A stretch of DNA of 64,000 nucleotides, from assembly GCF_000498575.2 (NCBI RefSeq), contig NZ_AWSQ01000004.1, forward strand, positions 531,834 to 595,833, given 5' to 3'. Under the pieces are notes generated by a model. The model searched no databases. It was not told the DNA's origin and saw only the letters and a list, made by a program, of their open reading frames with translations. Shown here in pieces: positions 1 to 12,584 of this stretch. Source of the DNA: Pseudomonas taeanensis MS-3 (GTDB lineage Bacteria; Pseudomonadota; Gammaproteobacteria; Pseudomonadales; Pseudomonadaceae). A program made the translations under genes and the position numbers. Numbering within the stretch: position 1 is the first letter of the stretch; every line of letters starts with the position of its first letter.

Positions 1-1
1 C

Positions 2-535
2 GGCACCTTCTTCGCCATGGAGCAGATGGGCGTGGCCGCCGACCTGACCACCTTCGCCAAGTCCATCGCCGGCGGCTTCCCGCTAGCCGGGGTGTGCGGC
101 AAGGCCGAGTACATGGATGCGATCGCTCCGGGTGGCCTGGGCGGCACCTATGCCGGCAGCCCGATTGCCTGCGCCGCGGCGCTGGCGGTGATGGAGGTGT
201 TCGAGGAAGAACAGCTGCTGGAGCACTGCAAGGCGGTTGGCGAGCGTCTGGTCACTGGCCTCAAGGCCATCCAGGCCAAACACAAGGCCATCGGCGACGT
301 GCGCGCCCTGGGCGCGATGATCGCGGTCGAGTTGTTCGAAGGCGGCGACCTGCACAAGCCCAACGCGGCACTGGTCGGCCAGGTCGTCGCCAAGGCGCGC
401 GACAAGGGTCTGATCCTGCTGTCCTGCGGCACCTACGGCAACGTGTTGCGCGTACTGGTACCGATCACCGCCGAAGAAGCATTGTTGGACAAGGGCCTGG
501 CGATCATCGCCGAGTGCTTCGACGAACTCGCCTGA
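2..535 (+). CDS. gabT: 4-aminobutyrate aminotransferase, C-terminal part
   Basis: The 5' end lies outside the window; 177 residues remain of an expected ~425. The enzyme is a PLP-dependent class III aminotransferase moving the amino group of GABA to 2-oxoglutarate, giving succinate semialdehyde and glutamate in the cytoplasm. The fragment opens just before the PLP-lysine motif TFAKSIAGGFPL (Lys at fragment residue 20), followed by GGLGGTYAGSP and the C-terminal small domain ending in DELA. The sequence closely resembles Pseudomonas GabT, although other class III transaminases of GABA or aminovalerate share these motifs. In Pseudomonas gabD normally lies just upstream. A strong terminator follows within 10 bases. 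Confidence 0.9.
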   Translation, partial: GTFFAMEQMGVAADLTTFAKSIAGGFPLAGVCGKAEYMDAIAPGGLGGTYAGSPIACAAALAVMEVFEEEQLLEHCKAVGERLVTGLKAIQAKHKAIGDVRALGAMIAVELFEGGDLHKPNAALVGQVVAKARDKGLILLSCGTYGNVLRVLVPITAEEALLDKGLAIIAECFDELA

Positions 536-544
536 GGCACAGCA

Positions 545-597
545 AACGCCATAAAGGCAGCAGGTATGTTCAGCCCTTCCCTGCTGCTTTATGGCGT
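545..597 (+). terminator. Hairpin terminator downstream of gabT
   Basis: A nearly perfect 19-20 bp inverted repeat (AACGCCATAAAGGCAGCAGG against its complement, with one base missing in the right arm) encloses a 14-base loop, starting ten bases after the gabT stop. There is no long T run, so termination strength is uncertain. Confidence 0.7.
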
Positions 598-600
598 TCA

Positions 601-1522
601 GCTTGGCCCAAGAGCAGTTACTGCTCGGCAGCCTTGATATGCGCTGCTTGAGGAGGCCTGGGGCGGTACTCCACAACCCAGCCAACACCTCGACATCACC
701 CCTGTTCCGATCGTCGACACCCTCCCTTTTTCTCCCATGCGTAGCGCCCTGCCGTGCTGTGCGGCTCATGCCAGCTTGGCTTTAGCAAAACTGGGCAGCC
801 CCTGCAGTTGAGCGTCAATCTGCTTGATGGTGTAAGCCCCGATCGGGATGGCCGAAGTCGCCGCCGTGGAGGTGCCATCGGGCACCATAGCGGCCTTCCC
901 TGGTTTGAGCTGCCTGCCTTCATGATTGAGCTGACCAGGCATGACGAGCTGACCAGCCTACAGCGCATCGTGGATAGCCCCTAACTCTTCCCTAGGCCAC
1001 GCCAGGGCAAACACTTTTCCAGCGTGGTCATGTTGATGGGCTTACGTCGAATGGGGCGCGAATATCTGGCCATGCACGAACTCCTCCGCACGTCCCGCGA
1101 CTGGGCGCAATACACAACCCCTGCTCTGCAGAGAGCATCATTCGAAGTGATATTAAACTCGTGTGAATACCTTCGTCCCCGGCAGCTCAACGTTAGGCCG
1201 AGATGCAACAGGTGCCGACCAATCTGGCTGTAATGTTCAGGTACTCGACCGCCGCGAATCAGGAGTCTCCAAACATTTCGAATTGGAATTCTTCAATCGG
1301 CCCTATTTGATAATCGGTTTACCGCGAGCAGTAGGTCGGAGCGCTCCTTCACGGCCAACGGCCCTGTGATGCGCTGGAAGAAGTGGTTCATGGCCATAGT
1401 GCATCCACTCACCATGGGCACTTAATACTGCGTCACCCCACCGGCGCTAAAGCGTGAGCACCCGCCCAAACTCAAGCAGCACATATCGACCGTTCCAATG
1501 ACTTAGCGCCGGAGACATCTAC
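601..1522. other. Gene-poor decayed stretch between gabT and the COG0523 gene
   Basis: No reading frame here has convincing coding character from start to stop. The largest frames are 60-90 codons, overlap on opposite strands and lack ribosome binding sites. Pieces look like eroded coding sequence: a 58-codon minus-strand frame at 766-942, and a plus-strand tail ending near 1424 with hydrophobic residues (WFMAIVHPLTMGT). A 10-bp inverted repeat, CCGGCGCTAA, occurs at 1441-1450 and 1503-1512 just beyond the 3' end of the next gene. I read it as remnants of lost genes. Confidence 0.4.
766..942 (-). pseudogene. Possible C-terminal remnant of an unidentified gene
   Basis: This 58-codon frame begins MPGQLNHEGRQLKPGK and ends GLPSFAKAKLA. 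Its balanced composition and soluble-protein look contrast with the arginine- and serine-rich frames around it. A stop codon lies seven codons upstream in the same frame, so any original N-terminus is gone. I do not recognise the family and cannot exclude chance. Confidence 0.25.
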
Positions 1523-2497
1523 CTATGCGATGCACTGCTCAAATGCTGTCTGGAAAGCCGCCGCATCGATAGCTCCGCGTTTGCCGATGACAATCACTTG
1601 GCTAAATGGCGCAGTACCCTGCCATTTCTCGGCTGGGTTGATCTCACATCTATTACCCACCAGATGCATGATGCAGCGCTGCCCCGGCACCTCGGCGATG
1701 TTGCAAACCCCTTTGGCGCGGTAGATATCGGTGGGTAGCGCTGCCAATGTCTGACGTAGGGCTTTGAGTGAGAGAGGCTGATCGCTGCTCCAGCACCAGG
1801 TGTCGAAGATCGCACCATGGTCGCGGGCGGGCGTTATGCCGAGCGAGTGTGAGGGGACTCGAGATTCAGCCGGCTTTAGTTTGCCGTCCGAATTGAAGCG
1901 TCCCACCCCGAGCACCAGCTCCAGCGGCACTTCGCAGTGCCGGGCTTCCAGCAGCCGTGCCTTAGGGTAAAGCCAGCGTGCCCGCAGGGCGTCGACCTGC
2001 TCGCGGCGAACTTGATCAATCTTATTCAGGACGATGATGTCAGCTGCATCCAACTGCTCCATTGCCAGTTGCGCCATCACGCCTTCAAGATTTTCAAATT
2101 GTGCCGCGTCGACCACCGTGAGGATGCTGTCGATGCTCAAGACGTCGCGGAACTGCGGGTAACGCAGGGTATTGGCGATTTTTACCGGATTGGAGACACC
2201 ACTGGCCTCGATGACGATGTATTCGGGGCGGTTTTCCCGATTGTCGAGCATGCGGCCGAGCTGCTCGATCAAGTCACTTTCGACAGTGCAGCAAATGCAG
2301 CCGTTGGCCAGACTGATGGTGGTCTGGGTTTGGCTGACGATCAGCTGGCTGTCGATGTTGATAGCGCCGAAATCGTTGACCATCACCGCCATGCGCAGGC
2401 CATGATCGCTGCTGAGAATGCGGTTCAGCAGGGTGGTCTTGCCCGCGCCCAAAAAGCCAGAAACTATCGTCACCGGGATGCTATTGCGTCTGTTCAT
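1523..2497 (-). CDS. COG0523 (CobW/YjiA-type) G3E-family metal GTPase
   Basis: This 324-residue P-loop GTPase belongs to the family whose members deliver or handle metal ions such as cobalt, zinc or nickel. Visible motifs are Walker A GFLGAGKT (residues 14-21), the family-defining metal-binding CxCC in NGCICCTV (Cys67, 69, 70), Walker B-like EASG (97-100) and the NKID guanine-specificity motif (158-161). A CobW C-terminal domain fills roughly 220-320. No histidine-rich insert is present. The start has an AGGAG ribosome binding site six bases upstream. It ends the minus-strand cluster, 53 bases after a metal-dependent amidohydrolase gene. That suggests, but does not prove, a role in metallating that enzyme or the aldolase. 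Confidence 0.88.
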   Translation of the reverse strand: MNRRNSIPVTIVSGFLGAGKTTLLNRILSSDHGLRMAVMVNDFGAINIDSQLIVSQTQTTISLANGCICCTVESDLIEQLGRMLDNRENRPEYIVIEASGVSNPVKIANTLRYPQFRDVLSIDSILTVVDAAQFENLEGVMAQLAMEQLDAADIIVLNKIDQVRREQVDALRARWLYPKARLLEARHCEVPLELVLGVGRFNSDGKLKPAESRVPSHSLGITPARDHGAIFDTWCWSSDQPLSLKALRQTLAALPTDIYRAKGVCNIAEVPGQRCIMHLVGNRCEINPAEKWQGTAPFSQVIVIGKRGAIDAAAFQTAFEQCIA

Positions 2498-2550
2498 AGA
2501 ATCTCCTACTACTTGGCAATGGGCAGGGGCCTAGCCCCCCACCGGTTGAA

Positions 2551-4287
2551 TCAGAAGTTCGGCAACTCGCCCTGCCAGATCGCGGCGTAATCGGTGCCAT
2601 CGAACTCGCCCAGACGGTCCCAGGTCACTTCGCCTTCGAGCAAGGTCAGTTGCACCTGGGTGTTGTGGATATTGCCCTTGGCCGCGATGTCGAACAGGTT
2701 GCGGTCGAGCACGATCAGGTCCGCTGACTTGCCGACTGTGATGGAGCCAGCTTGCCCCTCAATACCCATGCACCAAGCGCCGTTGATGGTCATCACGCTG
2801 ATGGCCTGCTCCAGAGAGATCGGCTTGCCGTAGAAGCTGCCTTCTTCCTCAGCAAACGGGTTCTGGCGGGTGATCATGGCTTCGAAGCCAATCCAGGGAT
2901 TGAGGCTGGACACCGGCCAATCGGTGCCCATTACCGCGACACCACCGGCTTCGAGCACGCCCTTGAAGTTGTAGGCGCGCTGCATGCGTTCCTCGCCAAA
3001 CACGGCGCGCGCATTGGCAAAGGAGGAAGGGAACCAGCCTACCGGAGAGAACTCGGCGGTAACCTGCAGCTCAGCGAAGCGCGGCAAGTTGGCGTCCAGC
3101 AGAGTCGTGCTGTGCGCGCATTGGTGACGCACGCCGCTGTCGCCGTTGCGCCGCCGTGCCTCAGCCACTGCATCGAGGAACAGATCGGAAGCGCCGTCGC
3201 CGGTGCAATGGGCAATTACGCGGACGCCCTTACGGTCCATGTCCACCACCATATCGGTGATGTGCTCGGGGGTCAGATTGAGGTGGCCGCGCCAGCTGCT
3301 TTCGCCCGGCCAAGCGCTAGACAGGTAGGAGGAGCGGGATTCGTGGGTGCCGTCGAAATGGAACTTAACCGCGTTGGCGTTGAGTCGGGCACTGCGGTAG
3401 AAGTGGCGTTCGCCAGCCAGCAACTCCCAGCGGCGCTTGACCGGGAAGATGTCATCCTGCCAGCTGATTGCTGCCTCCACCCGCACGGACAATTCGCCGG
3501 CCTGATCGATGGATTTAAGCGCGTTAAGCCGGTGTTCGCAGACATGCACGTACTTGGTGCCCACCACACCATGGCCGCTCTGGAATTGCACACCTTCGCG
3601 GTAGGCACGCTTGAGCGCATGCTGCGGGGTCGGCGGCATGGTCGCGTGGATCATCGCATAGGCACCATCCACCAATATGCCCGTGGGTTCTGCAGTCACA
3701 CTGTCGCGCTCAATATAGCCGTGGCGCGGGTCTGTGGTGTCCGTATTGATACCCGCCAGCTCCAGCGCTTTGGAGTTGACCAGCATGCAACCCCATGAGC
3801 GGTCGAGAATTGCCACGGGGCGGTCCGGCATAAAGCTGTCCAACCACTCGCGATCTGCTACCAGGCCGGCCTGTTTGAAGGTGTAGCGCACGAAGTACTG
3901 CCCATATATCCAGCCATCCCCGGGATGACTTTCGGCATAGTCGAGCACGGCCTGCTTGACCTGCTCTGGCGTAGGATCATCCAAACCGATGGCCAAGTCA
4001 CCGGAATAACCGGGAGCCAAGGCAAGGTCTGGGTGGGTGTGCATATCGTAGAGCCCCGGCATGGCGAAGCGTCCATTGAGATCGACAACTCGCGTGTGTG
4101 CACCAATACAGGAGGCAACCTCAGCGGCCCTGCCGACGGCAATGAAACGCCCGCCACGAATGGCTACAGCGTCGGCCCATGGATTGCTCGCATCCACGGT
4201 GTAGATGCGGCCATTGGTCAATACCAAGTCGGCGGCGCCGGTATTGCCCGGAATGTTAGAGGAGCTGAAGTCAGCGGGATTACCCAT
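2551..4287 (-). CDS. YtcJ-type metal-dependent amidohydrolase
   Basis: The product is 578 residues, usual for the Amidohydrolase_3/YtcJ family, which hydrolyses amide or related C-N bonds with an active-site metal in a TIM barrel. The N-terminal beta-sandwich strand DLVLTNGRIYTVD (about 20-32) leads to the metal-binding HxH in YDMHTHPD (His83, His85). Further landmarks are VIAHCTGDGASD (about 355-370) and the catalytic-aspartate region GTDWPVSSLNPW near residue 455. No signal peptide is apparent, so it is probably cytoplasmic. Substrate is unknown; relatives act on N-acyl or carbamoyl compounds. It sits between a YjiH-type membrane protein gene and the COG0523 GTPase gene. Confidence 0.85.
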   Translation of the reverse strand: MGNPADFSSSNIPGNTGAADLVLTNGRIYTVDASNPWADAVAIRGGRFIAVGRAAEVASCIGAHTRVVDLNGRFAMPGLYDMHTHPDLALAPGYSGDLAIGLDDPTPEQVKQAVLDYAESHPGDGWIYGQYFVRYTFKQAGLVADREWLDSFMPDRPVAILDRSWGCMLVNSKALELAGINTDTTDPRHGYIERDSVTAEPTGILVDGAYAMIHATMPPTPQHALKRAYREGVQFQSGHGVVGTKYVHVCEHRLNALKSIDQAGELSVRVEAAISWQDDIFPVKRRWELLAGERHFYRSARLNANAVKFHFDGTHESRSSYLSSAWPGESSWRGHLNLTPEHITDMVVDMDRKGVRVIAHCTGDGASDLFLDAVAEARRRNGDSGVRHQCAHSTTLLDANLPRFAELQVTAEFSPVGWFPSSFANARAVFGEERMQRAYNFKGVLEAGGVAVMGTDWPVSSLNPWIGFEAMITRQNPFAEEEGSFYGKPISLEQAISVMTINGAWCMGIEGQAGSITVGKSADLIVLDRNLFDIAAKGNIHNTQVQLTLLEGEVTWDRLGEFDGTDYAAIWQGELPNF

Positions 4288-4315
4288 GGCAGAAAACCTG
4301 AAGCAGAAGTCTTAA

Positions 4316-4342
4316 GGAAAAGGCGGGCAGCCTGCCCGCCTT
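4316..4342 (-). terminator. Hairpin terminator or attenuator inside the cluster
   Basis: On the minus strand a perfect 11-bp stem, AAGGCGGGCAG paired across a single central base, is followed directly by TTTTCC. It lies between the YjiH-type gene and the amidohydrolase gene, so transcription from the aldolase promoter may stop or be reduced here. Confidence 0.65.
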
Positions 4343-4357
4343 GGCAGAGGCTATTGC

Positions 4358-5749
4358 TCAGCCGAGCATTAGATGCCCTAGCACGGACAGGACCGGCAGC
4401 GAGATAAACACGCGCAAGAAATAGATCAGTACCAGATCGCGAAGTCGCAGGCCGATATCGGCCTTGATCAGGATGATCGCCGCCTCGGTGAAGAAGATGA
4501 TCTGGGTGACCGCAACGCCCGCCATCACGAAGCGCGTTACTTCGCTCTCGATACTGGCGCCGAGAATCGACGGCATGATGCTGTCGACTATGCCGGCCAG
4601 CAGCGCGGGGGCCGCCTTGTCTGCTTCCGGCAATTGCAGCAGTTCAAGATAGGGCACCAGAGGCAGCGACAGTGTCTGGAACAGGCTGGTGAACTCGATC
4701 AGGGCCAGGCCGACACAACCGACCAGCATCATCGCCGGGTAGATGGAGATAGCAATGTCGGCGCTGACATGCAGTCCGTGCTTGAGTTGCTCCAGAGGTG
4801 AACTGGCGTTATCGGCACGCTCGACGGCGCGACGCAAGCCTAAGGCAAACAGCCCCTCGCCTTCACGACGATCGGTCTTCAACTGCTTGCCTACGGCCGG
4901 GTTGTAAGTCTGGGCCTTACCACGCAGCGGCGGCAGCTTGGGGACAATCAACGCGCAGATAACCCCGGTGATAGCGACAGCGATGTACCACTGGATGAAC
5001 ACATGCTCCATGCCGATCAGTTTGAGCAGCAGGTAGGAGTAGGCAATCGATACGATGGAGAAATTGGTAGCGATGGTGCAGGCTTCACGGCTGCTGTAGA
5101 AGCCCTGACGATACTGCTGGGTGGTCAGAATGATACCCACGCTGGACGCCGACAACCAAGAAGCCAGGCAGTCCACTGCTGCGCGTCCGGGGAGGCCAAA
5201 GAGCTTCTCGAACACCCGGCTCACCAGGCTGCCGATAAACTCCATCAGGCCATAATCGGTCAGCAGTGGTAGCAGGATGGCGGAGAGGAAATAGATTGCC
5301 AGCACCACCGGACCGACGTCGTAGAGCATCACCCCACCGGTATTGCGGTGCCAGACCCACTCAGGACCCACCTCGAAGTAGACCATTGCCATCAGCACCG
5401 CACCGATGATCCGCACCAGGGTCCAACCGAGCCCCGGGTTGAACATCTGGACGAAGCGGTTTTGGATATTCTTCAGCGGACTGAAGCTGACCAGCAGGGT
5501 TATCAGGCTAGGAATGATGGCGACAGCGGCCGTGGCGGTCACCATCATGGGTTTGACGACATCGTTCACATAATCGATAACGAACGCGATCATGATCGTC
5601 ATACGGCCATCGATGCTTATCGGCGTTAAGAAGAGCAGTACGCCGAGCAGCGTGGGAATGATGAAGCGCAGCAATTGCTGCGTGGTGTATTGACCGAGCA
5701 CGCTACCTGCTTCGGGTACAGAGGCTTTGGTATTGGGTTGTTCGAGCAT
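4358..5749 (-). CDS. YjiH-type membrane protein with nucleoside-recognition (Gate) domain
   Basis: This 463-residue protein has about ten hydrophobic segments. The N-terminal half carries LLRFIIPTLLGVLLFLTPI and an inner-membrane core; around residues 180-260 it has the Gate-like stretch with FGLPGRAAVDCLASWL and SVGIILTTQQY. It resembles the YjiH family, presumed inner-membrane transporters of unknown substrate. I chose the ATG at 5749, preceded by AAAAGG; a GTG two codons earlier is the alternative. It follows the class II aldolase gene by 100 bases and precedes the amidohydrolase gene, so uptake or export of the pathway substrate is a reasonable guess. Confidence 0.8.
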   Translation of the reverse strand: MLEQPNTKASVPEAGSVLGQYTTQQLLRFIIPTLLGVLLFLTPISIDGRMTIMIAFVIDYVNDVVKPMMVTATAAVAIIPSLITLLVSFSPLKNIQNRFVQMFNPGLGWTLVRIIGAVLMAMVYFEVGPEWVWHRNTGGVMLYDVGPVVLAIYFLSAILLPLLTDYGLMEFIGSLVSRVFEKLFGLPGRAAVDCLASWLSASSVGIILTTQQYRQGFYSSREACTIATNFSIVSIAYSYLLLKLIGMEHVFIQWYIAVAITGVICALIVPKLPPLRGKAQTYNPAVGKQLKTDRREGEGLFALGLRRAVERADNASSPLEQLKHGLHVSADIAISIYPAMMLVGCVGLALIEFTSLFQTLSLPLVPYLELLQLPEADKAAPALLAGIVDSIMPSILGASIESEVTRFVMAGVAVTQIIFFTEAAIILIKADIGLRLRDLVLIYFLRVFISLPVLSVLGHLMLG

Positions 5750-5849
5750 TTTCACACCTTTTATTGTATTTGTGATTGGTCAGCCAGCAGAAGCACCCGC
5801 AGGCTCGTCAGGGCTGTGCAAGGTTTGTTCTCGCAGTTGCCGCTGCAGG

Positions 5850-6590
5850 TCAGTTGCGGAAGGAAGGATCGAGGCGGTCCAGCTTGCGCAACTCGGCGTT
5901 CCAGACCAGTTCCACGCTCTCGTTGTGGTAATGCTCGTGTTCGAACTGGCGGGCGGTGAACTCGCAATCCTGTGACGACGGGATGACCAGCGGGCGCCCG
6001 GTTTTCATTGCTTCCAGCTGAATCTCGCAAGCCTGGTTCAGGTAGTACATGAAGAAGTACGCCTCAGCGACGCTGCGACCGACCGTTAGCAGGCCGTGGT
6101 TGCGCAGGATCGCGCACTGCCTGTCGCCCAATGCGGCGACAATACGTGCGCGCACTTCCAGATCCAGGGGAATGCCTTCGTAGTCGTAATAGGCCACCCG
6201 CTCATAAAAGGCCATGTTGGTCTGATTCAGCGGCAGCAAGCCTTCTTCCAGAGCCGCCACTGCCATGCCAGCCAGGGTGTGCGTGTGCATCACGCAGACC
6301 GCGTCGTGGCGATGCGTATGGATGGCGCTGTGGATGGTGAAGCCCGCGGGATTTACCTCGGGGGCGCTGTCGTCCAGTTTGTTGCCATTCACATCGATGG
6401 CCACTAGGTTGGACGCGCTGATTTCCTCGGGCAGCAAGCCATACTGATTGATCAGAAAAGCCGGTTCATCCATAGGCAGGCGTACCGATATATGGGTGAA
6501 GACCTGATCGCTCCAGCCGTTGCGTTCCAGCAGGCGGTAGGCCGCCGCTAGATCGGTGCGTAGCGACTGCTCGGTGGCAGAGTTATTCAT
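5850..6590 (-). CDS. Class II aldolase/adducin family protein
   Basis: This 246-residue protein has the class II aldolase fold, which uses a divalent metal bound by histidines to cleave or decarboxylate sugar phosphates and hydroxy acids. Metal-ligand motifs are visible as CVMHTHTLAG (about 105-114) and ILRNHGLL (about 160-167). I chose the start at 6590 because GAGG lies eight bases upstream; an in-frame ATG 11 codons earlier lacks this. It is the first gene of a minus-strand cluster and is transcribed divergently from a LysR gene, the usual layout for a regulator and its target. Substrate is unknown; length and domain are typical of the adducin-like subgroup. Confidence 0.85.
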   Translation of the reverse strand: MNNSATEQSLRTDLAAAYRLLERNGWSDQVFTHISVRLPMDEPAFLINQYGLLPEEISASNLVAIDVNGNKLDDSAPEVNPAGFTIHSAIHTHRHDAVCVMHTHTLAGMAVAALEEGLLPLNQTNMAFYERVAYYDYEGIPLDLEVRARIVAALGDRQCAILRNHGLLTVGRSVAEAYFFMYYLNQACEIQLEAMKTGRPLVIPSSQDCEFTARQFEHEHYHNESVELVWNAELRKLDRLDPSFRN

Positions 6591-6772
6591 TGAGTGTCCT
6601 CGCAAACTGGTGTCGACAACCATGGATAGGAGTGAGAACAGCCTTGTGCCAAGAAGCTCAACTCTGTGCGGCTATCCACCGACCTTCCCTTTGCCAAGAG
6701 ATTAAGACGCTTGTTGTGGAGCGAATATCGACTTATTCTTCAGGCACTCATTCCAAAACGTCATGAACTCTG

Positions 6773-7702
6773 ATGCGCCGCCAGCTCCCTAGCATGATCT
6801 CCCTGAGTTGCTTCGCCGCCTTCGCTCGACATATGAGCGTCACCAAGGCTGCAGAGGAGCTGAACCTGACGCAGAGCGCCGTGAGTCGGCAAATCAAGAA
6901 TCTGGAGGACATGCTCGGCTGCGCATTGGTCGAGCGGGTCAAACAACGGCTGCTGCTGACCGACACCGGCCGTGAATATGTGCAGGAGATCAGCCTGCTG
7001 CTGGACCAGATGGAAGCCGCCACCCATCGAGTGCGCAGCAGCCATACGGGTCACCTGCGGGTGGGGGCGGAGCCGTCCTTCACTACCCGCTGGCTGCTAC
7101 CGAAACTCAGGGAGTACGTGCGACTACATCCCGATATCGACCTCGAGATCATGAATGACCTGCGACGCCTGTATGACAGCCATGAAGGCTACGACGTTGG
7201 GATTCTCTACGGGGACGGCAACTGGCCAGAGTTTGAGTCCCGTTTCCTGATGCACAGCGAAATGCTGGCAGTGTGCACGCCAGAGTTACTGGAACGTCAC
7301 GGCCCAATCGTCAAGCGGCGCGACATCCTGCGCTACCCCCTGCTGCACCATGCCGCCCACTCGTCGCTAATGAGGTCATCCACCCAACTGTGGCTGGATA
7401 AGGCTGGGCTTTCGCCAAAGGAAATCGAGGCATTGCCCGGTCAACGCCTGGAACACTTCCAGTTCGTCCTGGATGCCGCCCTCCACGGCCTGGGCGTGAC
7501 CGTGCTACCGCACTTTTTCGTGGCCAAGGATGTGGCCGAGGGACGCCTGGTGGTCGCCTGCCAGGAGCCACTGATCTGCGGTGGGTACTACGTAGTGATG
7601 CCCAGACACAGCCGCGATCCGAAGATCAATCGCTTTGCCGACTGGCTGTTGCAATGGCGTGATGGGCAGGAAAATTCATCCGCTGCACCGCTCTACAAGT
7701 AA
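6773..7702 (+). CDS. LysR-family transcriptional regulator (GcvA-like)
   Basis: The 309-residue product starts with a winged helix-turn-helix (residues about 8-67, AAEELNLTQSAVSRQIKNLE), followed by a periplasmic-binding-protein-like effector domain beginning near 95 (HLRVGAEPSFTTRWLLPKL). The opening RRQLPSM and the sequence TRWLLPKL are characteristic of the GcvA-like subgroup. It diverges from the class II aldolase gene across about 180 bases, so it probably controls that cluster in response to a pathway metabolite. No strong Shine-Dalgarno sequence is seen before the ATG. The effector is unknown. Confidence 0.9.
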   Translation: MRRQLPSMISLSCFAAFARHMSVTKAAEELNLTQSAVSRQIKNLEDMLGCALVERVKQRLLLTDTGREYVQEISLLLDQMEAATHRVRSSHTGHLRVGAEPSFTTRWLLPKLREYVRLHPDIDLEIMNDLRRLYDSHEGYDVGILYGDGNWPEFESRFLMHSEMLAVCTPELLERHGPIVKRRDILRYPLLHHAAHSSLMRSSTQLWLDKAGLSPKEIEALPGQRLEHFQFVLDAALHGLGVTVLPHFFVAKDVAEGRLVVACQEPLICGGYYVVMPRHSRDPKINRFADWLLQWRDGQENSSAAPLYK

Positions 7703-7946
7703 CACGGCCACGCCGCAACGGCTGGCACATGTAGTCCCCCCGGCCACCGACCTTTGGTCGCCATGCTGATATCCGGGCCGAACACCTTCAACACTGCTCC
7801 TCTAGCGTCTTGCTGGTCGCAGGTACATCGACTCGGGATGTCGACAATCTGTATCCCTCCCTTTCATCCCGCTCGATAGCTCGTATTTCACCACATCCAG
7901 ATGGCACGCGAGCGTGACCTGCAACGGCGTCAGCAGCACCCGCGAC

Positions 7947-9563
7947 TTACTTGCCTGACAAGAACGTCGCGCTCTCCTGCACTTCAATCAGGGTAGGTCG
8001 GTCGGCCTGCACGGCGCTCAGCAACAACTCTCGTAAATGCACAAAACTCTCTGCGCGCGCGGCATGGCAGCCAAAGCCCTTAGCCAGCGCGAGGAAATCT
8101 GGTGTGTAGATATCGACACCGATGGTGGGAATATCGCGGTCTTCCATATAACGCTTGATTTCGCCATAGCCGCTGTTGTTCCACAACAACACGATGATTG
8201 GCGCCTGGGCTTCAACGGCTGACGCCAGTTCTGGCAAGGTGAACTGGATACCGCCATCGCCGATCAGCGCTACCACCGGTCGCTCCGGTGCGGCCAGCTT
8301 GGCGCCAATGGCAGCCGGCAGGCCGTAACCCAGGGTGCCGTAGCCAGTAGATGAGTTGAACCACGTGCGCGGCTGGGTCGCTTCGTATAGGAAATTGCCT
8401 GAGTACACTGGCTGGGTGGAGTCCCCCGCGATAATCAGTTCCGGCAAGGTTTGTTGAAGGACCTGCAACACCCGCTGCTGGCCACGCCAGGCATCCGGTA
8501 TCAGTTCTTCTAGCTGGCTTCGCACCTGCCCGGCACGCTGTGCACCTGGGCTGCCTGGATTGAAACCACCCCTGGCACCCAGTGCTACCAGCAATGCCTG
8601 CATGGCCATGCGCGCGTCGCTGAGAATCGCGACATCGGCTGGGAAGTTACGGTTTAGCTGCTCTGCGTCGATATCGATCCTGATCAACTGGCTTTCGATC
8701 CTGAAGTTGCCGTCGAACACCCCGTCGTAATCGGTCTCACCCAACTCAGTACCGATAGCCAGCACCACATCAGACTGCAGTACTAACTCACGAACCGGTA
8801 CCAGCGACTGATTCGAACCCAATGCCAATGGATGCCCCTTTGGCAGCACACCCTTGGCATTGATCGTGTACGCGGTTGGCGCATCCAGTGCCTCAACAAG
8901 GCGTATCGCCTCGGCGCTGGCGTTTGCCGTGCCACCACCGAGCAATACCAAGGGTCGTTGCGCCGCCTTGAGCATTTGCACCGCCTGCAGAATTGCCTCG
9001 GGGCACGGCGCCGGCCGGCTGGGCAATGCACCCAGCTTGCGCTTGACGTGATCCGCAGGCGCAGTAATCACATTGATCGGAATCTCGATGTGCACCGGAC
9101 GCGGGCGGGCACTGTTGAACACCGCGAAAGCACGTGAAAGCACAACCGGCAGCTCATCCGGGCGCATCAGTGTATGGCTGAACGCAGCGACACCCGAAAC
9201 CAGATTACTTTGCGAAGGCAGTTCATGCAGACGTCCGCCGCCCATCGCCAGTTGCTCGGTATTGTTGACGCTGGAAACCACCAGCATGGGCACTGAGTCG
9301 CCGTAAGCCTGACCCATCGCGGTGGCGATATTGGTCATGCCAGGCCCGGTGATGATGAAACACACACCCGGCTTGCCACTAACGCGCGCATAACCATCCG
9401 CCATGAAGCCCGCACCCTGTTCATGGCGTGGAGTGATGTGCTTGATCTGAGTAGCTGGCAAACCACGATACAACTCGACCGTATGTACGCCAGGTATACC
9501 AAATACGGTATCGACCCCGTATGCCTCCAGAAGCTCTACCAGCAGTTCTCCGCAGGTCAACAT
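7947..9563 (-). CDS. aruI: ThDP-dependent 2-oxo acid decarboxylase, AruI-like (5-guanidino-2-oxopentanoate decarboxylase)
   Basis: The 538-residue protein has the three-domain layout of the acetolactate synthase/decarboxylase superfamily. The N-terminal domain has FGIPGVHTVELYRGL and the ThDP-activating glutamate in RHEQGAGFMADGYAR (Glu48); a central domain has VLLGGGTANA; the C-terminal cofactor motif runs from IGDGGIQFT to LLWNNSGYGEIK. It resembles Pseudomonas AruI, which decarboxylates 2-ketoarginine in the arginine transaminase pathway. No acetolactate synthase small subunit is nearby, arguing against valine or isoleucine synthesis. A decayed aminotransferase lies just upstream on the same strand, as aruH neighbours aruI in P. 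aeruginosa. GGAG precedes the start. Confidence 0.75.
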   Translation of the reverse strand: MLTCGELLVELLEAYGVDTVFGIPGVHTVELYRGLPATQIKHITPRHEQGAGFMADGYARVSGKPGVCFIITGPGMTNIATAMGQAYGDSVPMLVVSSVNNTEQLAMGGGRLHELPSQSNLVSGVAAFSHTLMRPDELPVVLSRAFAVFNSARPRPVHIEIPINVITAPADHVKRKLGALPSRPAPCPEAILQAVQMLKAAQRPLVLLGGGTANASAEAIRLVEALDAPTAYTINAKGVLPKGHPLALGSNQSLVPVRELVLQSDVVLAIGTELGETDYDGVFDGNFRIESQLIRIDIDAEQLNRNFPADVAILSDARMAMQALLVALGARGGFNPGSPGAQRAGQVRSQLEELIPDAWRGQQRVLQVLQQTLPELIIAGDSTQPVYSGNFLYEATQPRTWFNSSTGYGTLGYGLPAAIGAKLAAPERPVVALIGDGGIQFTLPELASAVEAQAPIIVLLWNNSGYGEIKRYMEDRDIPTIGVDIYTPDFLALAKGFGCHAARAESFVHLRELLLSAVQADRPTLIEVQESATFLSGK

Positions 9564-9730
9564 TGAGGGTAATACTCCTATAAGACAGTGAATAGGCTTG
9601 AGTGCCGCTCTGACATCGAGGTGTCGCAGCGCGCTCCTCGTAGATGTTGTGAATAGTCGAGTCTGGTTAGCGGCGGATCACGGAATGAACCCATCGACAC
9701 CGGCCACCTACTCGGATGTTTAAATGGCGC

Positions 9731-10032
9731 CTAGTGCCCCGCACACAGGGTCTCGACAACTGTAGCGATGCGCTGGCAGGTATCTTTCAGCACCCAATCG
9801 GCAACCGTAAAGGACAACCGTGCTCAGCTCTACGTGCTCGCGCAGAAGGCCTGCGCATCGAGACTGGGACACCGGCCTGGCGTAACAGCTGCCAGGCAAA
9901 ACCCATATTCGACAGGCCGGTGCGGCGCACGCCTAGCAACATGAACACACCAACTTCCGGCGTACTGCAGTTCAATTGCCGCACCCGACTTAACCCGGAG
10001 ACCACTAGGTCCCGCCGCGCCGAGACAGTCAC
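9731..10032 (-). pseudogene. Remnant of a class I/II PLP aminotransferase (AruH-like C-terminus)
   Basis: The minus-strand frame starting near 10032 reads ARRDLVVSGLSRV, then PEVGVFMLLGVRRTGL and FAWQLLRQAGVPVS, the typical C-terminal small-domain pattern of class I/II aminotransferases. Near 9864 the homology jumps to another frame, continuing DAQAF, two in-frame stops, then ARLSFTVADWVLKDTCQRIATVVETL and a stop at 9731-9733. That matches the final FGPSxxGHxRLSF-like segment and last helix. About 290 N-terminal residues are absent. The remnant is broken by a frameshift, two stops and truncation. Its position upstream of the AruI-like gene suggests a former arginine:pyruvate transaminase; that assignment is inference. 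Confidence 0.7.
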
Positions 10033-10383
10033 GCGCTGTGTTCAGATCGTTTCAGGCATTGAGATCAACCGCTCTATCCAGCAGACGAAGCCATGTCGAC
10101 GTGCATAAACAACCTGGATTGGCTTCGGAGAATAGCCAAATAAAACACAGGGTCAATCGAGTTATTTTTGCCAAATAGTGAAATTTAATTCAATAATTAG
10201 CCCGGCAACCGATGGTACGTCAGGCTGTTGCCTCCAGAGGATTCCGGCTCTCTTAAAGCCACGGCAGAAGGACTGCGGTAGAGCGGCATTGGACGCTTTA
10301 CTTAGGCTGGCTGGTCCCCCTCCTCATACAGCGCCCAACTAAGCACTCTTACTTCGACCCAGTCGGGGAGGAACTTCATCCCT
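10033..10383. other. AT-rich non-coding region upstream of the second LysR gene
   Basis: About 350 bases without a credible gene. The middle part (about 10135-10200) is much richer in A and T than its surroundings and probably holds the divergent promoters of the LysR gene and the former aminotransferase-decarboxylase pair. GGGGAGGA, 12 bases before the ATG at 10384, is the likely ribosome binding site. Confidence 0.4.
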
Positions 10384-11331
10384 ATGCGCCTGCCTTCAAT
10401 GACCGCCTTACGCGCGCTAGATGCTGTTGCCCGCTCAGGCAGTGTGTCCGATGCAGCCAGCGAACTGAATCTGACGCCCAGCGCCATTAGTCACCAGCTC
10501 AAGAGTCTCGAGCAAACCCTCGGATTCGCCTTAACCGAGCGTATTGGCCGAGGCATCCGCCTCACCTTTCAAGGGGAGCGTTATGCCAGAGACATCCATC
10601 ATCTGTTGGCCAATATTTTGGAGGCCGGCCAACGCTTCGATGGCCAACTAGTAAGTGGCAGGCTCTGTATCAGCAGTCCCGCCGGCTTCTCCACCTATTG
10701 GTTGTGCCTGCATATTGCAGCGTTTCAAGACCTCTATCCGCAGGTAGAGCTGCATCTAATTTCGCCTCGCACACCAGGCGATACCAGCGATAGCAACACC
10801 GATCTGTTTATTGCCTATGGCATGGGCGACTGGCCTAACCAACATGTCCAGCAAATCGTTACGCTGCGTTTTTTTCCGGTATGCAGCCCACGCCTGGCCA
10901 ATGCCCTGGGTGGACTAAAGAGCCCCCAAGAGTTGAGTGGTTGTCCGCTTTTACACATGCTCGACCACTCAGATTGGCGAGTTTGGCTGGCCGCAGCCAA
11001 TGCACCACATGTAGAAGTACGCCCCGGCATAGTGTTTTCTGATGCGCACTTTGTGCAGTCAGCCTGCATCGCCGGCCAAGGCATCGCCATAGGCGACAAC
11101 CTGATTAGTGGCGAAGCCCTGTCGCGTGGTTTGTTGGTGAAACCTTTCGCAACGGAAATTGAATCCAACCGGGGCTACTACCTGGTTGCCGACCCACAGA
11201 AAGCCGAGCGTCCGGTTGTTCGGGCCTTTTGTGAGTGGATTAAAACTCAGTTGAGTGCTCCAAGCCGAACAGCCCACCATGTGCGCAGAACATTAAACCG
11301 GGAGACTTTCGCCAATAGATCAGATGGGTAG
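10384..11331 (+). CDS. LysR-family transcriptional regulator (GcvA-like)
   Basis: This is a 315-residue regulator. The N-terminal helix-turn-helix spans about 5-63 (AASELNLTPSAISHQLKSLE) and the effector-binding domain starts near 88 with LCISSPAGFSTYWL. It has the MRLPSMTALRALDAVAR opening seen in GcvA-like proteins. It diverges from the decayed aminotransferase and the AruI-like gene, so it may be their regulator; no arginine-specific feature can be read from the sequence. The C-terminal ~20 residues are polar and may be an extension. The gene is followed immediately by an IS remnant. Confidence 0.88.
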   Translation: MRLPSMTALRALDAVARSGSVSDAASELNLTPSAISHQLKSLEQTLGFALTERIGRGIRLTFQGERYARDIHHLLANILEAGQRFDGQLVSGRLCISSPAGFSTYWLCLHIAAFQDLYPQVELHLISPRTPGDTSDSNTDLFIAYGMGDWPNQHVQQIVTLRFFPVCSPRLANALGGLKSPQELSGCPLLHMLDHSDWRVWLAAANAPHVEVRPGIVFSDAHFVQSACIAGQGIAIGDNLISGEALSRGLLVKPFATEIESNRGYYLVADPQKAERPVVRAFCEWIKTQLSAPSRTAHHVRRTLNRETFANRSDG

Positions 11332-11341
11332 CTGTGCCTAG

Positions 11342-11455
11342 TGGTCAACTAATCCCGGACACGACGTTAAGTTTTTTCTCGGCCTGCGCTGGGGCCAACC
11401 GACCGTTGAATTGATGGGGGCGAATCCAGTTGTATCGATGAATCAAAAAAATGGC
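11342..11455 (-). pseudogene. 3' remnant of an IS3-family element (transposase C-terminus and terminal repeat)
   Basis: The minus strand reads YNWIRPHQFNGRL followed by APAQAEKKLNVVSGIS and a stop at 11345-11347, the end of an IS3-family OrfB integrase. The outer end begins TGGTCAACTAATCCCGGACA, which looks like that element's terminal inverted repeat. Only about 35 codons survive; the catalytic residues are gone. Its sequence differs from the complete element at 30.1-31.4 kb, so it belongs to another IS. Confidence 0.7.
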
Positions 11456-11642
11456 TGATACCACGCAGGGCTTGATGGGCAGACACTGGCGGGCCAAAAC
11501 GGTGAGGTGCGCCACTTAAAGGCAGTAGGTAAATCCGTCGAGGACAACCTTCTACGCGCCGTCAACGTGGGGGAGCAACTGGGGGGAGCAGCGAACCACA
11601 GAAACGACAAGGCCCCGAATACGGGGCCTTGATGCATCAATA
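11456..11642. other. Non-coding stretch between IS remnant and tRNA-Ser
   Basis: No supported gene. Opposing frames of 55-65 codons exist on both strands but lack ribosome binding sites and recognisable motifs. A GC hairpin at 11608-11631 probably ends the tRNA transcript. Confidence 0.35.
11608..11631 (-). terminator. Hairpin after tRNA-Ser
   Basis: A 9-bp stem, AAGGCCCCG with its complement, has a short loop 12 bases beyond the 3' end of the tRNA on the minus strand. The downstream T tract is weak (TTGTCGTTTC). Confidence 0.5.
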
Positions 11643-11730
11643 TGGCGGAAGCGTAGAGATTCGAACTCTAGGACAGTTTCCCGTCGGCGGTTTTCAAGAC
11701 CGCTGCCTTAAACCACTCGGCCACGCTTCC
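11643..11730 (-). tRNA. tRNA-Ser (anticodon UGA)
   Basis: The minus strand folds as an 88-base class II tRNA. The acceptor stem GGAAGCG pairs with CGCTTCC, followed by G and an encoded CCA. The D region has GCCGAGTGG, the anticodon loop reads CTTGAAA with anticodon TGA, there is a long variable arm, and the T loop has GTTCGAATC. It decodes UCA and, by wobble, other UCN serine codons. A decayed IS lies just beyond its 3' end, a common situation at tRNA genes. Confidence 0.95.
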
Positions 11731-11839
11731 AAAATTTTTACGGCAACGTTCATGGCCGCTTTACATCATTCAATCACGCCTTGGCTTGACTGAGGGCGGC
11801 AATCTTACCGGAACGCAACACACTGTCAAACTCTAAAGG

Positions 11840-11867
11840 TTGGCAGTGCGTATTGCTCTGTTATGAT
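11840..11867 (+). promoter_or_regulatory. Sigma-70-type promoter for the Bax-inhibitor-1 family gene
   Basis: TTGGCA and TATGAT are separated by 16 bases, and TG one base before TATGAT makes an extended -10. It lies about 50 bases ahead of the ATG at 11916. Confidence 0.6.
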
Positions 11868-11915
11868 CCCCACAACCCTGATCACGGATCTACTAATCTT
11901 TACAGGAGTGTCGCC

Positions 11916-12584
11916 ATGCGCGAACAAGATATCGCACTCAATCACACGCAGGTTGAGCAGCTGGAAGTCAGCCGCGTCTTGCGCAATACCTACGGCCTGC
12001 TAGCCATCACCCTCGCCTTCAGCGGCCTGGTGGCTTATCTGGCGCAACGCGCCAACGTACCTTACCCGAATTTTATCGTGGTATTGGTCGGCTTCTACGG
12101 TTTGTTCTTCCTCACCGCGAAGCTGCGCAACTCGCCATGGGGCCTGCTCTCCACCCTCGCCCTGACCGGCTTCATGGGCTACACCCTCGGGCCGATCCTC
12201 AACCGTTACATGGGCATGTCCAACGGCGCGGAAGTGGTGAGTTCGGCCTTTACCATGACGGCGCTGGTATTCTGTGGCCTGTCCGCCTATGTGCTGACTA
12301 CCCGTAAGGACATGAGCTTCCTCAGCGGCTTCATCACGGCGGGCTTCTTCGTTCTGATCGGGGCCATGCTGGCTGGCTTCTTCTTCGAGATCAGCGGCCT
12401 GCAATTGGCGATTAGCGCTGGTTTCGTGCTGTTTTCCTCGGCCTGCATCCTCTATCAGACCAGCGCGATCATCCACGGCGGCGAACGTAACTACATCATG
12501 GCCACCATCAGCCTGTATGTATCGATCTACAACCTGTTCGTCAGCCTGCTGCAAATTTTCGGCATCATGAGCGGCGACGACTGA
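11916..12584 (+). CDS. Bax inhibitor-1/YccA family inner-membrane protein
   Basis: The 222-residue protein has seven hydrophobic segments, the usual topology and length of the BI-1/YccA family. E. coli YccA binds and restrains the membrane protease FtsH; other members conduct calcium. The start at 11916 is preceded by AGGAG seven bases upstream; a 21-codon upstream extension would include the promoter and is rejected. The N-terminal 25 residues are polar and cytoplasmic, and the protein ends in acidic SGDD. The gene appears monocistronic: own promoter upstream, strong terminator 12 bases after the stop. Exact function here is not shown by the sequence. Confidence 0.88.
   Translation: MREQDIALNHTQVEQLEVSRVLRNTYGLLAITLAFSGLVAYLAQRANVPYPNFIVVLVGFYGLFFLTAKLRNSPWGLLSTLALTGFMGYTLGPILNRYMGMSNGAEVVSSAFTMTALVFCGLSAYVLTTRKDMSFLSGFITAGFFVLIGAMLAGFFFEISGLQLAISAGFVLFSSACILYQTSAIIHGGERNYIMATISLYVSIYNLFVSLLQIFGIMSGDD

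Follow-up and report, generated by a model that had tools for sequence, protein, structure and literature searches.

A decayed aminotransferase gene between an AruI-like decarboxylase and a conserved LysR regulator in Pseudomonas taeanensis MS-3

An intact decarboxylase and its gene cluster

We analysed a window of 64,000 nucleotides of the P. taeanensis MS-3 genome in which an intact gene for an AruI-like ThDP decarboxylase (minus strand, 7947-9563; 538 aa) is followed, on its upstream side, by the broken 3' end of an aminotransferase gene (minus strand, 10017-9737) and an intact LysR-type gene, here called LysR2 (plus strand, 10384-11331). The decarboxylase contains the TPP-enzyme N, M and C domains (Pfam) and scores 836 bits against NCBIfam NF005712 (PRK07524, '5-guanidino-2-oxopentanoate decarboxylase'; cut-off 500), a non-discriminating model that three other kinds of decarboxylase tested also pass, with 783, 784 and 871 bits. 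Its HEQGAGF and GDG...NN motifs are both present, HEQGAGF being the catalytic Glu region of ThDP decarboxylases. By domains and motifs the product thus appears to fit an active-type ThDP decarboxylase, and the description of an intact AruI-like gene in the first-pass annotation stands.

The decarboxylase is nevertheless a PRK07524-family member other than an AruI orthologue. In a tree, it forms a clade of four (support 100/98) with its orthologues in BN102, G041 and G042 (83-86% identity), next to a ureohydrolase-linked group (P. aeruginosa PA7 and others) and well separated from AruI as well as from the decarboxylases linked to ATx, the label used here for a clade of class I aminotransferases apart from AruH. 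The window gene and the AruH-adjacent gene of PA7 share 46% identity and belong to separate clades. Its reading as AruI is therefore not sustained: it lies in neither the AruI clade nor the clade that accompanies ATx. Its evolution is not accelerated, with a dN to BN102 of 0.123 against 0.121 for the G041 gene. A second genus sample, centred on G042, yielded no close orthologues beyond those of G041 and G042 (2 of 397 genomes; our samples of 397 or 398 genomes were drawn evenly from a larger group).

None of these three closest orthologues has an AruH- or ATx-like neighbour. The sole match of that type near them is weak (29%) and 6 kb off, in a G042 gene resembling, on inspection by eye, a GntR-type regulator. 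Among 80 named loci (L009-L088, the best 80 of 593 confirmed stretches, some of them short), an AruH-like gene adjoins the decarboxylase in only two, L035 and L074. In G041, a one-contig genome carrying the decarboxylase, neither AruH nor ATx was found anywhere (best relative 33%), nor was a second decarboxylase of the family among the matches listed (down to E 5.7e-57). Because the orthologues have no such aminotransferase beside them and none was found in G041, the window decarboxylase seems not to depend on a nearby aminotransferase. Its expected substrate would be a guanidino or amino 2-oxo acid.

The remainder of the decarboxylase cluster comprises genes for a G3E GTPase, an amidohydrolase, a Gate-domain membrane protein and a class II aldolase (minus strand, 1523-6623), together with LysR1 (plus strand, 6773-7702), the regulator that belongs to this kind of cluster. 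G041 and G042 have the same genes in the order G3E GTPase, amidohydrolase, membrane protein, aldolase, LysR1, LacI, decarboxylase, with further genes intervening between LysR1 and LacI in G041, and BN102 shares the aldolase, LysR1, LacI and the decarboxylase. All three closest orthologues (3/3) have both a LacI-family gene and a LacI-type palindrome, and the window has neither: the gap between LysR1 and the decarboxylase (7703-7946), where the three orthologous clusters hold the LacI-family gene, is without it, and the palindrome that precedes their decarboxylases is gone from the upstream region (minus strand, 9564-9736). A search for the LacI-family gene in the window's genome did not find it, the best LacI relative there being 37% identical. 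In G041, the LacI-type palindrome (L127 5193-5210 and 10899-10914) also precedes inserted genes that, by eye, resemble lutABC, which suggests that LacI may control two units there. The amidohydrolase-G3E GTPase pair (window 1523-4287) recurs beside different decarboxylase clades and transporters; that the GTPase serves as a metal chaperone is no more than a guess.

The aminotransferase remnant and the clusters of its relatives

The remnant corresponds to the final 94 codons of a class I aminotransferase of 393 residues (L132 reference) and is read on the minus strand in two pieces, codons 299-350 at 10017-9862, with the deletion junction upstream, and codons 351-392 in another frame at 9862-9737. 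It matches by tblastn with E 1e-25 over the two pieces (71.6 and 48.1 bits), and its lesions are one frameshift at 9862 and two in-frame stops, both in the second piece (TAG 9832-9830 and TGA 9826-9824); BLAST weakly extends the first piece to 10092, which would add a TGA at 10044-10042. These data confirm what had been noticed at the outset, an aminotransferase C-terminus of about 100 residues interrupted by a frameshift and two stops, with the rest missing. A chance match is ruled out: when the stretch was shuffled in two-base blocks and searched with two ATx proteins and one AruH, the best of 500 copies reached 26.9 bits, against 71.6 for the remnant.

In a tree of 25 aminotransferases, the remnant falls inside the ATx clade (14 rows, support 100/100), although it covers only 23% of the tree columns and is placed only in the clade as a whole. 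Matching residues number 58-63 of 91-92 against the eight tree members from LysR2 clusters, 50-54 of 90-92 against the five remaining ATx in the clade, and only 32-36 against five AruH (33/88 for PA7, the others of 92); the AruH rows, from this genome, P. aeruginosa PA7, P. otitidis, BN102 and G042, all lie outside the ATx clade. Placement and residue matches together exclude that the remnant is aruH, and the alignment with AruH and other aminotransferases that had been proposed as a check on the AruH link comes down in favour of ATx. What survives of that link is that the remnant is from a related aminotransferase and that ATx, in relatives, sits with an AruI-like decarboxylase. Databases gave no discriminating name: GntC, below its cut-off, is the best NCBIfam match of both ATx and AruH, and a PDB search with ATx returned general class I aminotransferases only (best E 8.7e-69). 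The nearest DNA match obtained (72%) comes from G032 and G052, where an AruI-like gene lies about 5.5 kb away.

In the tree the remnant has a tip of 0.66, roughly six times the 0.11 of L202, which would be expected of a pseudogene. Across 16 relatives it keeps 135 of 161 invariant columns, distributed over the three codon positions as 51/64, 73/79 and 11/18; since the columns still differ by codon position, much of its divergence appears to predate decay. An intact ATx elsewhere in the genome was looked for and rejected, as the best relative of the L132 ATx, the nearest intact kind, is this genome's own AruH on contig C6 (51% identity) and the next is 33% identical.

That AruH, an intact gene, stands in a row of three on C6 with a decarboxylase (47-48% identical to the window's) and an aldehyde dehydrogenase. 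It shares 83-84% identity with a PA7 gene located next to PA7's decarboxylase of the same clade, a pair that we take, by gene order, to be aruH-aruI. The genome holds three NF005712-family decarboxylases in different clades (C4:539783-541396, C6:298230-299810 and C10:137452-139065), the C10 member adjoining an aldehyde dehydrogenase. The AruI-clade gene beside AruH is the one on C6, and the remnant's neighbour is of a different clade; an intact aruH exists elsewhere in this genome, paired with a different aruI, a finding that the first-pass annotation had itself named as going against its reading. This intact pair rules out loss of the arginine transaminase genes, and we find no support for a loss of the arginine pathway.

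Intact counterparts of the remnant occur in clusters with LysR2 orthologues. Of 398 genomes, 18 others carry an orthologue at 78-83% identity (77-83% in the 16 relatives with enough sequence for the cluster comparison), and 21 further ones have weaker matches of 56-71%. Our LysR2 set is the 19 genomes at 78% or more, the window's own included, of 40 with matches; 17 of the 18 others were examined by locus, and G360 counts for identity and operator but not in the cluster comparison. An AruI-like decarboxylase, 53-57% identical to the window's, adjoins LysR2 in 17/17 relatives, and LysR2 is divergent from an ABC ATPase-permeases-ATx operon in all 16 with enough sequence; the seventeenth, L199, is a 3.6-kb contig with LysR2, the decarboxylase and the start of an ABC gene only. 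An amidohydrolase and a G3E GTPase follow in 15 clusters (the L133 amidohydrolase was matched in two pieces), giving the ATx cluster its content of ABC transporter, amidohydrolase, G3E GTPase, AruI-like decarboxylase and LysR regulator besides ATx; these neighbour counts cover genes matched by 20 reference proteins in tblastn at E 1e-8. The G226 cluster has a partial amidohydrolase (L204 3986-4903) and no G3E GTPase match and is possibly decaying. G261 has a fuller cluster in a row (L229 9448-19870, L259 2376-5084): a LysR2-like gene (65%), a 530-aa protein with no Pfam family at 1e-5, an amidohydrolase (82%), G3E, an ATx-kind decarboxylase, ABC genes, ATx and, at the end, an aldehyde dehydrogenase. 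Its amidohydrolase is 82% like the window's and yet lies beside ATx, which blurs a division into two modules.

In eight clusters measured, 3953-4019 bases separate the start of the ABC ATPase gene from ATx codon 299. The window lacks the ABC ATPase, the permeases and ATx upstream of codon ~299, and the region upstream of its LysR2 aligns with intact clusters from about 10128; about 4 kb has therefore been lost and the promoter region joined to the ATx end, with the junction somewhere in about 10018-10127. That this happened in one single event we infer. The ATx cluster's own decarboxylase is also absent beside the window LysR2, and no remnants of known cluster genes were detected at 7703-7946 or 11332-11640 at E 0.06 or better. 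A tRNA-Ser gene (tga, 11643-11730), whose 3' end faces the cluster, adjoins LysR2 and may be an insertion site.

LysR2 and its putative operator

The LysR2 gene is an intact ORF of 315 codons for a protein with HTH_1 and LysR_substrate domains (Pfam), and its product is the orthologue of the ATx cluster regulator, orphaned here. LysR2 is not accelerated: its mean amino-acid difference to six outgroups, 0.312, is the lowest of 18 rows (range to 0.352), and it has a tree tip of 0.12 where the remnant has 0.66, L202 having 0.11 in both trees. These comparisons rely on amino-acid relative rates and trees, branch-specific dN/dS being uninformative at a dS of ~1.4 or more for the window pairs, near saturation. 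LysR2 also has a GC3 of 0.57, the lowest of 13 window genes measured (0.74-0.95 in 23 homologues), and an extended C-terminus.

Upstream of LysR2 lies a sigma70-like promoter that points leftward (minus strand, 10129-10156), identified by consensus match only (TTGACC-16-TATTCT; -35 at 10156-10151, -10 at 10134-10129), which in intact clusters faces the ABC-ATx operon. A putative LysR2 operator region (10151-10193) contains a TGAA-N6-TTCA dyad at 10179-10192. The dyad's centre lies about 64 bases upstream of where leftward transcription is expected to start, a position at which LysR proteins often bind. Across 17 relatives, 34 of 35 invariant columns are kept at 10120-10200, promoter included, as are 9 of 13 nearer LysR2 (10201-10383) and 505 of 554 in LysR2 itself; the contrast between 34/35 here and 135/161 in the remnant is modest (one-sided Fisher P = 0.026), and the alignment favours matches.

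An operator pattern allowing at most one mismatch, designed like the others from an alignment that includes the window, occurs once per genome in 19 of 398 genomes, which are exactly those with LysR2 at 78% or more, and is absent from the 21 genomes with LysR2 matches of 56-71%; the backwards control gave none. The window operator has no mismatches to the pattern. Up to three mismatches, there is no second full LysR2 operator elsewhere in the genome, and the weak three-mismatch matches within the window are at shuffle level. LysR2 may bind the putative operator and regulate adjoining genes. A scan of 9400-10450 placed both of its promoter-like hits at the operator and found no terminator; it is a weak scan, in that shuffles average 0.7 of each.

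Origin of the arrangement and comparison with known systems

We propose that a deletion fused two catabolic modules here. One, of the G041/G042 kind, would have comprised the G3E GTPase, amidohydrolase, membrane protein, aldolase, LysR1 and decarboxylase; the other would have been a LysR2-controlled ATx cluster beside it. Removal of about 4 kb of the latter, starting a short way upstream of the ABC ATPase gene and ending at ATx codon ~299, would have left LysR2, the operator with its leftward promoter, and the decaying ATx 3' end. Transcription from that promoter would now cross the remnant and reach the decarboxylase, some 560 bases downstream, replacing LacI control, and the enzyme would act on 2-oxo acids from other transaminases. 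We give this overall account an even chance. As the LacI-family regulator and the palindrome have both been lost, the decarboxylase has probably passed to LysR2 control, and in the simplest reading it would have moved there by read-through from the captured promoter. That the deletion thereby placed it behind another operon's promoter, with LysR2 again controlling an AruI-family decarboxylase but one of another clade than in the 17 relatives, is a more tentative claim, to which we assign somewhat less than even probability. If gene decay let the decarboxylase capture a promoter, the survival of the regulator beyond its operon would be explained; a counterpoint is that the leader would be long, with a pseudogene inside it.

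The main competing explanation, which we consider a possibility well short of even, is that LysR2 and its operator have simply not yet decayed, that the decarboxylase has a promoter of its own and that LysR2 regulates nothing of note. The low GC3 and extended C-terminus of LysR2 agree with such a relic, as does the codon-position pattern still visible in the remnant, which implies fairly recent decay; LysR2 may have been kept merely because the time for decay was too short, and the operator could be kept solely for LysR2 autoregulation. The codon-position pattern and the low GC3 accordingly call for caution about a switch of regulator. Against a relic speak the lack of any excess amino-acid change in LysR2, beside a remnant with a tip about six times that of L202, and the retention of 34 of 35 invariant promoter and operator columns. 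The conservation of LysR2 would also suit a target elsewhere in the genome rather than the decarboxylase, and LysR regulators can act in trans; we think this unlikely, as a genome-wide search for full sites with up to three mismatches gave a single operator, at LysR2's own promoter.

Two further readings carry much less weight. The first-pass annotation proposed that aruH had been lost beside aruI, so that the first step of arginine transamination was gone and the second survived, and the remnant does come from an AruH-related group and does lie beside an AruI-like gene. The grouping of the remnant with ATx, the position of the decarboxylase outside the AruI clade and the intact AruI-AruH pair, with its aldehyde dehydrogenase, on C6 make this very improbable. 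Least probable of all, and hardly credible, is that an assembly or sequencing error gives an intact aminotransferase a broken appearance. One frameshift could arise in this way, but here the frameshift agrees with two stops, the absence of about 298 codons and of the ABC genes, and the long tree tip.

Overall, the case is one of ordinary gene decay, rightly noticed at first but ascribed to the wrong gene and pathway, with a moderately interesting proposed consequence for regulation. It corrects a tempting pathway call, in that an AruI-like gene beside a dead aminotransferase does not imply broken arginine transamination, and it separates several clades that go under one family name and differ in their neighbours and probably in their role. 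If the regulator swap is true, it would be a clean natural case of a deletion shifting a gene between regulons. A literature search on promoter capture with LysR gave nothing apt among the matches listed. On arginine-pathway, guanidinobutyrase and LysR themes, we met no description of the ATx cluster in the portions of the literature covered (including parts of PMC7268258 and PMC11113362), which is not proof that it is unpublished.

Among known systems, P. aeruginosa AruH-AruI uses the same enzyme families, a class I aminotransferase and a ThDP decarboxylase (Pfam, NF005712), but the window's remnant and decarboxylase belong to other clades, and the orthologous pair lies intact elsewhere in the genome. 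The AspC-IlvB1 pair of Sinorhizobium meliloti, which we liken by description rather than by sequence, has an AruH-like transaminase with an AruI-like decarboxylase gene downstream; the article describing it calls both enzymes promiscuous and IlvB1, termed an AruI homologue, sevenfold more active on 5-amino-oxopentanoate (PMC7268258). To the extent of that account, AruI homology does not fix the substrate.

The ureohydrolase-linked decarboxylases of P. aeruginosa PA7, P. otitidis and others form the neighbouring clade, at 64-68% identity to the window's in the Pseudomonas loci examined, and some of their clusters share the aldolase or the Gate-domain protein with the window. The ureohydrolase beside them we take to be guanidinobutyrase; the window cluster has the amidohydrolase and G3E GTPase instead, with no ureohydrolase match in window 1-12000. 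Compared with the LysR2-ABC-ATx-amidohydrolase-G3E-decarboxylase cluster, the window lacks the ABC genes, the greater part of ATx and the decarboxylase that belongs to such clusters, and it is this kind of cluster that gave rise to the remnant, LysR2 and the operator.
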